Of a stretch of DNA of 64,000 nt, positions 24,426 through 30,493 are shown one piece after another. Each line of letters begins with the position of its first letter. Position 1 is the stretch's first letter. A program made the position numbers and the translations under genes. The notes beneath the pieces are model-generated. The model had not been told where the DNA came from, made no database searches, and saw nothing but the letters and a program-made list of their open reading frames with translations. Source of the stretch: Methanobacteriota archaeon (GTDB lineage Archaea; Thermoplasmatota; Poseidoniia; Poseidoniales; Thalassarchaeaceae); the NCBI GenBank assembly GCA_002716085.1, contig PAYZ01000009.1, positions 91,768 through 155,767 on the forward strand, in the 5' to 3' direction.

Positions 24426-25094
24426 CTACTCAGCATCGATTGTCAAATTGTAGAAAACTGCGGTCCAGTTTATTTCGAAGTCCTCATCATTGTCGATAAT
24501 CCCCCCAGCAACGGGAACTGGGGCATTTTCGATTGTTGCAGTAATTGTCGCAGACCACTCCCCTCTTCCATTTCCGCCATCATTCCACAACTGCCTAATT
24601 TCACCCTCACTCATCTCCTCTTCAGAATATTCCGATCCAGAATAGTTCTCAGTAACATCCCATCTGATTGTGAAACCCCCCTCTCCTCCTCCGGAGCAGT
24701 CTCCTTCTGCATTCTGATCCTCCACCCCTTCTATTTCGCTCAGCTCGCTTTGCCCCTCAACACTGTCTGTAAACCCTGGACCAGGATCGTCGTTATCGAA
24801 ACAGGAAACTTGCAACTCTACGTATCCAATGCTCATACCAGGCTCCACTATCAAGTCGAAAGTTGTCTCATAACTATCACCGTCTCCTAAGGTTACTGAC
24901 TCACTTTGAGTATTCTCACTCTCCTCAAAACTCACCTTAAGGGTTCCAGTCAACCCAGAAGAACCTCCTGCGATATCTCCTTCAACTAACGAAGGAAGAG
25001 CTGCGAAATAAACAGGAAAGGCTACTAGGAACACAACAGTACCAGCAAGAGTCTTCACCTTTTGAGGGGTATCTACTAGATCTTGGAAGTCCAT
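24426..25094 (-). CDS. Membrane-anchored extracytoplasmic protein, unknown function
   Basis: N-terminal TM TVVFLVAFPVYFAALPSLV followed by an acidic beta-rich ectodomain. Confidence 0.65.
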   Translation of the reverse strand: MDFQDLVDTPQKVKTLAGTVVFLVAFPVYFAALPSLVEGDIAGGSSGLTGTLKVSFEESENTQSESVTLGDGDSYETTFDLIVEPGMSIGYVELQVSCFDNDDPGPGFTDSVEGQSELSEIEGVEDQNAEGDCSGGGEGGFTIRWDVTENYSGSEYSEEEMSEGEIRQLWNDGGNGRGEWSATITATIENAPVPVAGGIIDNDEDFEINWTAVFYNLTIDAE

Positions 25095-25181: not shown

Positions 25182-25679
25182 CTAACTGGGGTTTTCTTTC
25201 CATCTCTTGATATCGACTCCTTCTTGAGAGAATAATTTCCTCGACTTTCTGAATTCTGGGAGGAGATATCCAACAACTGACCTCTCCATAAAAGTCCATT
25301 TCCACGGGCACCTAGGTAGAAGATCTACCCATTCATTTAGCAAACCTCTCCATAAAGAAGCATCCACAGTTTCCGGGATTCTGAAGGAAACAAATGACAA
25401 GCGACCTGCAGATCCAGGAACATAGCTCCATGTTCGAATGGATAACCCTTCAATCTCTCCTTCATCAAATGATAGCCCAAAGACTCTAGTCCTATTTGCA
25501 AGAGGTACGATAATTGCCCATCTATGTACCATTGTCGTTTCCTCGAAACGACTCATTTTCCAACCATGGTTTTCACCTATTACGCGCATCGCCCTGATTG
25601 CTTCAGTTGGCACCACGCTCACTGGAATCTCAAGCGTCCGCTCCATTAGTATCGGCCCACCCTCGAGGCCCTCGCCCAT
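25182..25679 (-). CDS. Conserved hypothetical protein
   Basis: 165 aa ORF in the same-strand cluster, coding-like composition. Confidence 0.55.
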   Translation of the reverse strand: MGEGLEGGPILMERTLEIPVSVVPTEAIRAMRVIGENHGWKMSRFEETTMVHRWAIIVPLANRTRVFGLSFDEGEIEGLSIRTWSYVPGSAGRLSFVSFRIPETVDASLWRGLLNEWVDLLPRCPWKWTFMERSVVGYLLPEFRKSRKLFSQEGVDIKRWKENPS

Positions 25680-25712: not shown

Positions 25713-26039
25713 TCAGCCGAACAGGGAGCCCAGGCCCTCGAACCCGCCCGCTTCTTCCTCTGGCTCTTCAGCTGCCTCTTCCTCAGCAGGAGCAGCATCA
25801 GCCGCCCCTCCACTGGAAGAAGCAGACGGAGCAGCAGAGGCCACTGGGGCGGCGACCGAGGTCGCCATGGCCTCATCGATGTCCACGGAGCCTAGAGAAG
25901 CTACCAAGGCCTTCACTCTGGCCCCGTCAGCCTCAACTCCTGCGGCCTTCAGCACTGAGCTTACAGCCTTGTCATCGATGCCCTTTCCTGCAGAATGCAA
26001 CAACATTGCAGCATACACATATTCCATTTCATTCACCAT
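25713..26039 (-). CDS. rpl12: Ribosomal protein P1 (archaeal L12)
   Basis: [34 protein letters not shown]..., acidic C-terminus ending GLGSLFG. Confidence 0.95.
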
Positions 26040-26042
26040 TTT

Positions 26043-27059
26043 TCATCCGAAGAGATCGCCAAGTCCTCCGAACTCAGCTTCTTCTTCCTCTTCCTCCTCC
26101 TCGTTGGAAGAGCCATCCTCTGACTCTTCCGACTTCGTCGCTTCGGAAACCGCGACTTCAGCGCTCTGAGATGCTGCTCCTATAGCAGCTAGCAGCTCTT
26201 CGTCGAGAGCTGAGGAATCTAGTTGTCCGGCAAGGGACAGAGCTCGAGTGCGTGCACTCGAAAGAATGGCCGTAGCAGTTTTTTCGTTGATAATTTCTGC
26301 CTCCATAGCCACTGAAAGCGACTCTGATGAGGCCTTGGAAAGAAGAGTAGGAAGTGTTGTTGAGGAAAGCCATCGCACATTGCATGCAAGGTTGAATGCA
26401 CCTGAAGTAGCACTCAAGATATCGTTCCTTAGGCCATCCGTGTCCAAGTCAAGATCAGAGGATGAGAAAATGTGACCCTCCTCTATCGCTCCAGTGAGTA
26501 TCAGTCCAATTTCAATTGGGTTAACTCCAAGCTTTGAAAGCATAATTCCCAAATCTGCGGAAATTTCCTCCCCTTTCGAGAAGGTAGTAGCCTTCTGAAT
26601 CGCAACCTTCCCTTTGTCTATCTTTGCTGGAATTCCTACGGCATTGAATTCTCCTACAATAGGTCCCGGACCGAACTCAGTTGGTCCAGCCGGAATTGTT
26701 ACGTCGTCAGGGAACGTTTCTCCTGCCTTAGCAGCCCTTCCTTGGCGTGTCTTCTCCAATTCTCCGAAGATCTCGAAGGCATTCATTGAATCACTATGAA
26801 CTACGCAAGGCTGATCAGCTCCATCAAGAAGAATCTCAATCTCATCAGGTGATCTCCCTGCTTCATTCCATGCAATTCTCATCAGAGACTTCTTTGCCAT
26901 AGTAATTGACATCCTTTCCCTGAGTGTTTTCCTCATATCTATCATGTTCTTTGCGGGAACTCCAGAGACATCGATCACTGCAACTACTCCATCGCTGCTG
27001 AAAATCTCAGTCAGCTCAGAGACACTATCTTTCTTCCAACCTGCAACTTTCGGAATCAT
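26043..27059 (-). CDS. rplP0: Ribosomal protein P0 (uL10)
   Basis: Operon context; VAVIDVSGVPAKNMIDMRKTLRER, PAGPTEFGPGPIVGEFNAVGIPAKIDKGKVAI, C-terminus EEEEEEEEAEFGGLGDLFG shared with P1. Confidence 0.95.
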   Translation of the reverse strand: MIPKVAGWKKDSVSELTEIFSSDGVVAVIDVSGVPAKNMIDMRKTLRERMSITMAKKSLMRIAWNEAGRSPDEIEILLDGADQPCVVHSDSMNAFEIFGELEKTRQGRAAKAGETFPDDVTIPAGPTEFGPGPIVGEFNAVGIPAKIDKGKVAIQKATTFSKGEEISADLGIMLSKLGVNPIEIGLILTGAIEEGHIFSSSDLDLDTDGLRNDILSATSGAFNLACNVRWLSSTTLPTLLSKASSESLSVAMEAEIINEKTATAILSSARTRALSLAGQLDSSALDEELLAAIGAASQSAEVAVSEATKSEESEDGSSNEEEEEEEEAEFGGLGDLFG

Positions 27060-27700
27060 AGTACCACCTCTACCTTAACGGACGGCCCCATTGAAGTCTT
27101 AACATAGCAAGAGCGTATGTTTCCTGCACCCCTCTCTAGCTTTCCAGTAACCCTGTCCCATATTGCCACGGCGTTGGATGTCAGGTCTTCTATCCCCTGT
27201 TCCCTAGAACCTAGGGCAGTGTGGAACGTCACTTTGTCCCTCGAGCGAACAATCGCTGTGTCTTTTAGTCCAGAGGCAAGAGCAGACGGATCTAGTGTTG
27301 GAGGAACCGGACGAGGCATCTTTCCTCTAGGTCCCAGTACTCCTCCCAGGAACCTACCCACTGTCCCCATGTGTGGAATCTCTGAGAGGAAGAAGTCGTA
27401 TTGTTTTGCTATCTTCCTAGCTCTCTGTCTATTTCCACCTAAGTCCTCAATCGTCGAAGGATCGATAACATCCAGTCCAGCTGCTTTAGCTTTCGAAGCC
27501 ATCTCCCCTCCAGCGAACATCGCTATCTTCACAGGCTTCCCCCTTCCGGATGGCAGCCTGACCTCTTCCTGGATCCTATTGGTTGGAATCTTCAGGTCAA
27601 CGTCTTTGATAGTAAATGACATCTCTATGGATTCAACGAAGCTTCTCTCAGGAGCCCCTTCGATGGCCTGTTGGATTGCAGTTTGCAGATTCTCTTTCAT
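27056..27700 (-). CDS. rpl1: Ribosomal protein L1 (uL1)
   Basis: IKDVDLKIPTNRIQEEVRLPSGRGKPVKIAMFAGG, VGRFLGGVLGPRGKMPRPVPP, KTSMGPSVKVEV. Confidence 0.95.
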   Translation of the reverse strand: MKENLQTAIQQAIEGAPERSFVESIEMSFTIKDVDLKIPTNRIQEEVRLPSGRGKPVKIAMFAGGEMASKAKAAGLDVIDPSTIEDLGGNRQRARKIAKQYDFFLSEIPHMGTVGRFLGGVLGPRGKMPRPVPPTLDPSALASGLKDTAIVRSRDKVTFHTALGSREQGIEDLTSNAVAIWDRVTGKLERGAGNIRSCYVKTSMGPSVKVEVVL

Positions 27701-27752
27701 TTTCCTCACCTCTGCGGTCAACGAGGCTCACCTCTCCCGCAACTCGTGAAAT

Positions 27753-28031
27753 TTAACTAAAATGCTCGTTAAATGCCCCCTCGCTCATCTCTTTGAGAGC
27801 GACCTTTGGTTCCAGACCCTCTACCCTAACTCTCATTCCCACGCAAGTACCCATTACTTCTCTGCATCGTGCGTAAAGAGACTTCCCGGTAAGCCTGCCC
27901 TTCTGATCCTCAGCAATGCTCTTTACTTGATCCATCGTTAGATTTTCTGTGGAGGCTTCCCACGACCCGTTGCACTTCTTCTTCCCTAATGCCTGTATCA
28001 CCTTGTGGGGCGTTTCGTTTCGTGCAGACAA
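27753..28031 (-). CDS. rpl11: Ribosomal protein L11 (uL11), C-terminal domain only
   Basis: TTG start preceded by GGAGGT-N7-TTG; NETPHKVIQALG...NLTMDQVKSIAEDQKGRLTGKSLYARCREVMGTCVGMRVRVEG aligns to the uL11 CTD; N-terminal PPLGP-type domain absent. Confidence 0.85.
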   Translation of the reverse strand: MSARNETPHKVIQALGKKKCNGSWEASTENLTMDQVKSIAEDQKGRLTGKSLYARCREVMGTCVGMRVRVEGLEPKVALKEMSEGAFNEHFS

Positions 28032-28113
28032 GAAAATTACCTCCTTTGCGGGACTCGCCGACCTGCTCTCCCTATTTGATGATGATGCAATAAGAAAATC
28101 TCGATTATTCAGG

Positions 28114-28980
28114 TTACTCTACCCTCTGAGTCACTCTTACTTGGTCAGCTCTTACAGTTAGGGCAACAGGGACTGCTGCTTCGAATAGCTCTACAGTAAC
28201 CTCTTCCTTTGACTCAGCAACCCTGGTTACTCTTGCAGCCTGCCCTCTAAATGCCCCTCCAGAAATTTCGACAATACAACCTTCTTCTATTCCGGAAGTA
28301 GCTGCTTTGGGCTCAAGGTATGGCAGGACATCTTCCAATGGTGCCTCTCCATCCAGAACCTTGCTACAATTCTTTAGTGGAGTAACCCCCACTCCGACCC
28401 TGCCAATCAACTTCTGAACGTGATGCATTGCTGCTGCCTCCACAAAAATGAATCCCTTCATGTAATGAGGGCTGAGAACCCCGAAAATTTTGTCTTGGAT
28501 ATCTTTGAGAGAACCAGTACCCGAAAGCCTAGCTCTAATCTCGCCAGCAACGTTCTGCTCCTGACCTATCGAGGTTTTCAGGATGTAGAGGTATGAAGCC
28601 ACATCACCATACATCTCTTTCAGTTGGGGGGTTGCGTAATCCTTGGTCTGAATTGCCCCAGGATCAACCCATTCGAAGCTCTTGTATAGTGTTCCTGGGT
28701 TGACCTCGGTCTCTTCGGTTAAGTAAAGAATCGGTGTCACGTCGTTTAGTCGGTTTCCATAAGCCAGCCCCCTAGCCATATCAGATCTAACTCTCTCCAT
28801 CTTTTCTGGAGGGATTCCAGTGCACTCAGAGACTCTAGACAATACTAAATCCTCATCATAGGGATCTCCAACTCCATAGATTCCATCCCATGCACCGGGG
28901 AAGTCTGCGACCTCATCGGCTCTTTGCATTAGTAGAACTCTCTCTCCGCTTCGAAGATAAACCGTGAAAGCCTCAGACAA
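28114..28980 (-). CDS. spt5: Spt5/NusG transcription elongation factor with N-terminal Nudix-like domain
   Basis: C-terminal half: LYILKTSIGQEQNVAGEI...SPHYMKGFIFVEA...GRVGVGVTPLKN (NGN) and EEGCIVEISGGAFRGQAARVTRV (KOW). N-terminal half: VLLMQRADEVADFPGAWDGIYGVGDPYDEDLVLSRVSECTGI (Nudix-like). ORF starts GTG 28989 or, with better SD placement, TTG 28980. Confidence 0.85.
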   Translation of the reverse strand: MSEAFTVYLRSGERVLLMQRADEVADFPGAWDGIYGVGDPYDEDLVLSRVSECTGIPPEKMERVRSDMARGLAYGNRLNDVTPILYLTEETEVNPGTLYKSFEWVDPGAIQTKDYATPQLKEMYGDVASYLYILKTSIGQEQNVAGEIRARLSGTGSLKDIQDKIFGVLSPHYMKGFIFVEAAAMHHVQKLIGRVGVGVTPLKNCSKVLDGEAPLEDVLPYLEPKAATSGIEEGCIVEISGGAFRGQAARVTRVAESKEEVTVELFEAAVPVALTVRADQVRVTQRVE

Positions 28981-28990
28981 GAAACACACC

Positions 28991-29254
28991 TCACCCAGTT
29001 AACCACTCGAAGAAAGGTGGGAAAACATTCACCATCAGCGCGAGAATCACGAAACCGATTGCGCCAAGAACGAACATCCCGATTCCACAAACAATCACAG
29101 TCTGTCTGAATTCTTGTTTAGATGGCTTCTTTGCCATTTTTAATATTCTAGCATATGAGCCAGTCTGTAGCCCCTTTAGACGCCCTTCTATTTCATCTTG
29201 CCACGATTGAGCAACTCCCTCAATCGGGCCTACCTTTGAGTTCTCAACTGCCAT
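28991..29254 (-). CDS. secE: Protein translocase subunit SecE/Sss1
   Basis: Single C-terminal TM; LKMAKKPSKQEFRQTVIVCGIGMFVLGAIGFVILALM; SD GGTGG upstream of ATG 29254; adjacent to spt5 as in archaea. Confidence 0.88.
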   Translation of the reverse strand: MAVENSKVGPIEGVAQSWQDEIEGRLKGLQTGSYARILKMAKKPSKQEFRQTVIVCGIGMFVLGAIGFVILALMVNVFPPFFEWLTG

Positions 29255-29341
29255 TCTACCACCTAGAAGCACCACGGCGACCTACAGATTCCATTTAAGG
29301 ACGACGGGAAGAAAGCAGAAGACAAACACCTCATTTTTCAA

Positions 29342-30493
29342 CTAGCTAACGAATTCTACGGTTCTGTTTCTGAGGTTACGCATCTGAGTATGGAGTGCCG
29401 CTCCGTGAATCTGCTCGCTCTTTACTCCAGTTAGTACTAGTAGAACTCTGATATCATTACCCATGGAATCATCCGTTGTTACCCCCCAAATCATCCTAGC
29501 ATATGGGTTGATGCTCTCACGGATTATCTTTGCACATTGCTCTGCCTCTCCAAGAGTCAGACCAGGGCCCCCTACTACGTTTACCAAGGCCCCCCTTGCA
29601 TCTGAAATGTCGATATCTAGAAGAGGCGACTCCAGAGCCTCCATCGTGGCCTTTTCTGCCCCCTCTTCGGCCGTTGCCTCTCCTAGTCCAATCATTGCCA
29701 CTCCTCCTCCGTTTTCCATTACTGACCTCAAGTCTTGGAAGTCCAGGTTCACCACACCCTCCTTTGCAATCATCTCTGAGACTCCAGAGATACTTCTCAT
29801 TAGCAATTCGTCTGCTACTCTGAATGCAGCGTCTAGAGGAAGGTCCCGAACCCCTTCAACTTCCAGAAGCCTCTCATTTGGTAGGACTATCACGGTATCG
29901 CAAACCTCCCTGAGTCTCTCGAGGCCCCATTCAGCATTTTGCCTCCTCACTGCTCCTTCGGAAACAAACGGGTAACTTACTACGGCAATGGTCAACGCTT
30001 CTGATGCCTTTGCTAGCCTGGCAACGACATGAGCACTACCAGTGCCCGTGCCGCCGCCGAGGCCAGCGGTGATGAAAGCAAGATCGCATTTCTCCACCTC
30101 AGTTTTTAGAACACGCTCGGACTCATATGCCGCCTGCTCTCCCTTTTCCGGGTCGCCCCCCGCCCCCCTGCCTCGGGCGGACCGACCAATCAGGACCTTG
30201 TTCTCTACGCTCACTCTCAACAGATGTTGAGCATCAGTGTTTACTGCCATCCCCTTGACGTAATCTCCATCGAACAAACCCTCCTGCTCTAATCGGGCGA
30301 CTGTGTTTGATCCACATCCTCCGCAACCGAAAACCCGGATCTTCGGCTGTAGTGATTTTAGAAGACTCTCAAGATCTGGAACTTCCTCAGGTTCCGATAC
30401 CGTTGGAGCCTGTGTTTCCTCCTCTTGGAGTTCTAGAACCCTCTCAATAAGGTGCTTCACAAACTTCAGGCGCGTTGAATAGAGGATAACCAT
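29342..30493 (-). CDS. ftsZ: Cell division protein FtsZ
   Basis: VFGCGGCGSNTVARL, GLGGGTGTGSAHVVARLAK tubulin signature, NLDFQDLRSVM, GVTTDDSM. Confidence 0.96.
   Translation of the reverse strand: MVILYSTRLKFVKHLIERVLELQEEETQAPTVSEPEEVPDLESLLKSLQPKIRVFGCGGCGSNTVARLEQEGLFDGDYVKGMAVNTDAQHLLRVSVENKVLIGRSARGRGAGGDPEKGEQAAYESERVLKTEVEKCDLAFITAGLGGGTGTGSAHVVARLAKASEALTIAVVSYPFVSEGAVRRQNAEWGLERLREVCDTVIVLPNERLLEVEGVRDLPLDAAFRVADELLMRSISGVSEMIAKEGVVNLDFQDLRSVMENGGGVAMIGLGEATAEEGAEKATMEALESPLLDIDISDARGALVNVVGGPGLTLGEAEQCAKIIRESINPYARMIWGVTTDDSMGNDIRVLLVLTGVKSEQIHGAALHTQMRNLRNRTVEFVS

Follow-up and report, generated by a model that had tools for sequence, protein, structure and literature searches.

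In a Thalassarchaeaceae (Marine Group IIb) genome, the gene for ribosomal protein uL11 encodes only the C-terminal domain (CTD), and the N-terminal domain (NTD) is absent across the order Poseidoniales. Poseidoniales (Marine Group II) are among the commonest archaea of the surface ocean. uL11 is a universal ribosomal protein, and its NTD, which is ancient and normally highly conserved, counts as a standard element of both the factor-binding site and the thiopeptide target. The usual jobs of the NTD are to touch EF-2, the release and recycling factors and the stalk base. We hold it very probable that the short gene is a true uL11 orthologue kept by selection, that the NTD was lost once, in the Poseidoniales ancestor, that the remainder binds and folds H43/H44, and that the jobs of the NTD are either dispensed with or done by P0/P1 and rRNA.

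We analyzed a 64,000-nt stretch of the genome (the window), and coordinates count from its first letter. The rpl11 gene lies at 27753..28031 on the minus strand, starts with TTG and encodes 92 aa; it was identified by a PF00298 match, a profile and an AlphaFold2 model. An earlier reading of the sequence alone (the sequence-only reading) had marked positions 27753–28113, which take in the spacer as well as the ORF (the ORF ends at 28031). It described a product of about 92 aa corresponding to the C-terminal rRNA-binding domain, and the Pfam results agree. PF00298 matches residues 10–66 (E 5.8e-7, 30.3 bits versus a cut-off of 21.4), and PF03946 (L11_N) has no match in the protein. The NCBIfam archaeal L11 equivalog NF002232 is not reached (51.8 bits versus 162 needed), and only model positions 78–158 of 164 are covered. 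A profile built from short uL11 proteins matches archaeal L11 of known structure, beginning at about residue 72 and running to the C-terminus, and in alignment the short protein begins at the inter-domain linker. The alignment also contains a conserved EVxGTCVxMRV block and an invariant CNG where GSG is usual. The AlphaFold2 model drew on 12 sequences and is of moderate confidence (mean pLDDT 80, pTM 0.72). Its top PDB match is the CTD of Methanocaldococcus jannaschii L11 in 5D8H, a structure of the P-stalk base (5d8h_C; TM 0.86, rmsd 1.5, 87 columns). Pairwise dN/dS has a median of 0.044 and a maximum of 0.26 over 201 unsaturated pairs; judged by these substitution rates, the short uL11 is under strong purifying selection. 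By its CTD and its position, and on sequence evidence, the window gene is a uL11 orthologue. It is not a standard two-domain uL11, because the NTD with its GPPLGPALGP motif is absent from the protein, the genome and the order.

A short ribosomal protein gene in a MAG, starting with TTG, could reflect an assembly error, a frameshift, a pseudogene or a wrongly chosen start. A Shine-Dalgarno sequence, GGAGGT, is located at 28039..28044 (minus strand), 7 nt before the TTG, as the sequence-only reading had it. We compared the gene with 80 named loci, the best 80 of 396 places encoding a relative. These belong to Marine Group II, Candidatus Poseidoniales, Candidatus Thalassarchaeaceae, Thalassarchaeum, or Euryarchaeota/Thermoplasmatota MAGs. 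The product is 91–92 aa in all 80; 79 begin with ATG and one, which is identical to the window, with TTG; and an SD-like string stands upstream in 60. An in-frame stop precedes the gene in 79 of the 80, at 0–53 codons before the start in 78 of them and at 66 in the other (median about 11). The window has an in-frame upstream extension of 29 codons. The sequence-only reading found no NTD similarity in this extension, and neither did we; among relatives the extension differs in sequence or meets a stop within a few codons. Because of the in-frame stops and the lack of frame conservation, we reject an alternative upstream start. The short architecture is the same in all of these loci, which include single-cell genomes, and throughout the order. 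With this agreement, the upstream stops and the low dN/dS, we give the idea of an artefact next to no credence.

The distribution of the two domains was determined with Pfam profiles. The source genome (1.58 Mb in 27 contigs, 82% complete) has a single PF00298 match, the window gene, and no PF03946 match. Its 60 nearest relatives span two families and 17 genera; 57 of them have PF00298 and none has PF03946, while all 14 control genomes have PF03946. Beyond Thermoplasmatota, these 14 controls are the only comparison. In a draw of 244 genomes from the class, PF00298 was present in 211 and PF03946 in 18. The two Poseidoniales families, Thalassarchaeaceae (MGIIb) and what we infer to be Poseidoniaceae (MGIIa), had PF00298 in 193/223 genomes and PF03946 in 0/223. 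All 18 PF03946 matches fell in the sister family, by inference Marine Group III, where the same 18 of 21 genomes carry both domains. A phylum draw of 390 genomes had PF03946 in 247, made up of 7/7 in the sister family, 240/255 outside the class and 0/128 in the two Poseidoniales families. The 15 misses outside the class are scattered and compatible with incomplete genomes.

Most genomes surveyed are MAGs. One NTD-less genome of the second Poseidoniales family (G037) is a single contig of 2.06 Mb, and relatives with the short uL11 include the records AG-457-A01, AG-422-I22, AH-287-M04 and AG-447-I14, which we take from their naming style to be single-cell genomes and so independent of metagenome binning. 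Assembly error is excluded because hundreds of independent genomes agree, single-cell and one-contig genomes among them; the sequence-only reading had argued against a simple assembly deletion from the window alone. That reading concerned one genome, proposed HMM searches of it and its relatives, and would have been refuted by a full-length L11 in a relative. We found none in Poseidoniales, in the slot or elsewhere, and the pattern of PF00298 without PF03946 holds order-wide. As far as profile searches can establish it, a domain loss spanning the whole order is confirmed, wider than the original claim.

The NTD might be supplied in trans by a separate protein, either too diverged or too different in origin for profiles to find. 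Replacement would be an easy way to keep the function, since the NTD is ancient and highly conserved. The sequence-only reading had raised the question of a stand-alone NTD, and PF03946 finds none in the Poseidoniales genomes surveyed. We also built an NTD profile from the sister family and other Thermoplasmatota and ran it at E<=10; it gave no match in 12 Poseidoniales genomes and recovered the positive control (G064) at E 5.3e-43. For the genomes searched, these two profiles rule out a recognizable stand-alone NTD elsewhere. Profile searches cannot exclude an unrelated protein, but spt5 and P1 have no additional conserved gene between them in Poseidoniales loci, and P0 is not enlarged. We consider supply in trans very improbable.

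The gene order supports orthology of the short gene. The conserved neighbourhood starts at ftsZ (29342..30493) and continues, all on the minus strand, with secE (28991..29275; PF00584), spt5 (28114..28989), rpl11, rpl1 (uL1; 27056..27721; PF00687, E 9e-42) and the genes for P0 and P1. The spt5-rpl11-rpl1-P0-P1 neighbourhood is conserved, and in outgroups a full L11 occupies the same slot. Pfam matches to the neighbours bear out the earlier placement of the short gene in the L11 slot of a SecE-Spt5-L11-L1-P0-P1 operon. Unlike Poseidoniales and most outgroups, the sister family (probably Marine Group III) showed none of rpl1, P0 and P1 adjoining rpl11. Two minus-strand ORFs downstream of P1, of 222 and 165 aa (24426–25094 and 25182–25679), have no Pfam match. 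The window Spt5 has an N-terminal extension; in Poseidoniales this extension, about 130 aa before the NGN domain, is much longer than in a sister-family copy, and in two relatives it matches NUDIX below threshold (E 0.01 and 0.03).

Between spt5 and rpl11 there is a spacer (28032..28113, minus strand) in place of the roughly 210 nt that an NTD would take. The sequence-only reading put the spt5 stop at 28114, which is right (the codon is 28114–28116), and the gap at 83 nt, which we count as 82 nt. Its argument that the gap is too short for the missing domain of about 70 aa extends to relatives: the spacer is 57–102 nt in 20 Poseidoniales loci from both families. In those NTD-bearing relatives whose two genes were read, spt5 and full rpl11 overlap or lie almost end to end.

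The spacer contains a conserved promoter-like block, TCAAATAGGGAGAGCAGGTCGGCG (28056..28079, minus strand), which occurs once in the window and includes a TATA-like box, TCAAATA (28073–28079, minus strand); the sequence-only reading had not noticed it. A box of the form T[CTA]A[AT]ATA stands 46–51 nt before the rpl11 start in 76 of 78 loci of the family; such a box occurs in 0.55% of 90-nt stretches drawn at random from the window. The other Poseidoniales family has GCGCGATTAAATAGGG or GCGCGATTATATAGGG at the equivalent position, which to our eye resemble an archaeal BRE plus TATA box. We considered an RNA leader and rejected it, as the block matches no Rfam family and folds are not shared. 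That the block is a promoter is inferred from sequence, because its position and the BRE/TATA-like sequence in both families fit. This suggests that rpl11-rpl1-P0-P1 has its own promoter. A transcript starting about 25 nt downstream of the box would have its 5' end immediately ahead of the short ORF and could not include an NTD.

The partners of uL11 are in place. P0 (uL10; 26043..27059, minus strand; PF00466, PF17777 and alignment) is full length, with an intact N-domain, insertion domain and GLGDLFG tail; the stalk protein P1 (rpl12; 25713..26039, minus strand; PF00428 and alignment) is ordinary. The 58-nt GTPase-associated 23S rRNA (H43/H44) is present and its A1067 and A1095 loops are intact (23S positions follow E. 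coli numbering by hand alignment). A short contig of the source assembly (C27:1307–2667) carries another 23S rRNA, which looks bacterial and is likely contamination (listed at 5.85% for the assembly); another genome (G099) has a similar one.

P0 and the GTPase-associated rRNA might have been remodelled to compensate, giving a re-wired factor-docking site. The P0 N-domain has order-specific residues, and 36 Poseidoniales genomes having this stretch carry G at 23S position 1083, versus U in most relatives. The change at 1083, at first seemingly confined to Poseidoniales, proved to have exceptions inside and outside the order. It is not tied to NTD loss, because Poseidoniales genome G166 (whose 23S is 82–84% identical to Poseidoniales 23S) has U and G499, outside the order and NTD-bearing, has G. 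On the alignment we treat U1083G as a lineage mark, not a proven compensation. G1056A and a U-A pair at 1091–1100 are common to Poseidoniales and the sister family, which has the NTD, and H43/H44 is otherwise ordinary. An enlarged P0, or one with an extra domain to substitute for the NTD, was not seen in alignment. EF-2 is present in 25/25 genomes searched, full-length except where contig ends cut it. Its domain V has no excess of lineage-diagnostic residues (3/15, Fisher P 0.40), and no compensation there was detected. Remodelling remains possible but unlikely.

The loss may instead have been fixed as antibiotic resistance, by removal of the cleft for thiopeptides of the thiostrepton type. 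Thiostrepton binds between the uL11 NTD and H43/H44 (PMC5960728), and resistance arises from uL11 changes (PMC8614978). Nothing indicates that the ancestor was exposed to thiopeptides, however, and A1067 and A1095 are unchanged. We think this origin improbable; it bears on the cause of the loss, not on the identity of the protein.

The explanation that we prefer is a true uL11 reduced by a single ancestral NTD loss at the base of Poseidoniales. The retained CTD would act as an rRNA clamp on H43/H44 and support the base of P0. The factor contacts of the NTD may have been dropped, or passed to the P0/P1 stalk, which is intact, and to the bare tips of the rRNA. In known ribosomes, the uL11 CTD is the rRNA-binding part, and the NTD uses its GPLG helix to touch factors, eEF2 among them (PMC9122527); domain III of aRF1 touches the L11 stalk (PMC10516650). 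From these contacts it follows that NTD loss should alter the GTPase-associated centre, as the sequence-only reading proposed, although this has not been shown experimentally. Without protein or ribosome data, we infer that the CTD occupies its usual ribosomal site and that factors function in the absence of the NTD. With the domain missing order-wide, Poseidoniales ribosomes must presumably handle translation factors without it. Whether the whole order translates with neither the NTD nor a substitute, so that EF-2, aRF1 and ABCE1 dock unlike on any solved ribosome, we regard as evenly balanced. If it does, translation does not universally require the NTD lever at the factor-binding site.

We found no earlier report of a CTD-only uL11 in Poseidoniales in searchable open-access full texts; neither the Poseidoniales genome papers nor the prokaryotic ribosomal protein papers that we found refer to one. 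A natural, ancient and order-wide loss is a ready-made test of what the uL11 NTD is for. It predicts that Poseidoniales are intrinsically insensitive to thiostrepton-type drugs. Marker models of full-length L11 will under-score Poseidoniales genomes.

Three known systems are comparable. Archaeal uL11 (PF03946 plus PF00298; M. jannaschii, 5D8H) has a common CTD fold (33% identity at the TM-score given above) and the same operon place, rRNA target and P0/P1 partners. The Poseidoniales form differs in starting at the inter-domain linker and lacking the whole NTD of about 70 aa. Ribosomes also work without the uL11 NTD when the entire protein is missing: E. coli strain AM68 gives ribosomes without L11 (PMC4490557), and yeast survives deletion of RPL12A/B, though it is slow and error-prone (PMC9122527). 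Both are laboratory mutants with no uL11 at all, whereas Poseidoniales keep the CTD and their loss is natural, ancient and order-wide. L11-C76 (1HC8) is, like Poseidoniales uL11, the CTD alone, and it binds the GTPase-centre rRNA; it is an experimental fragment, whereas the short uL11 of Poseidoniales is a natural gene product.
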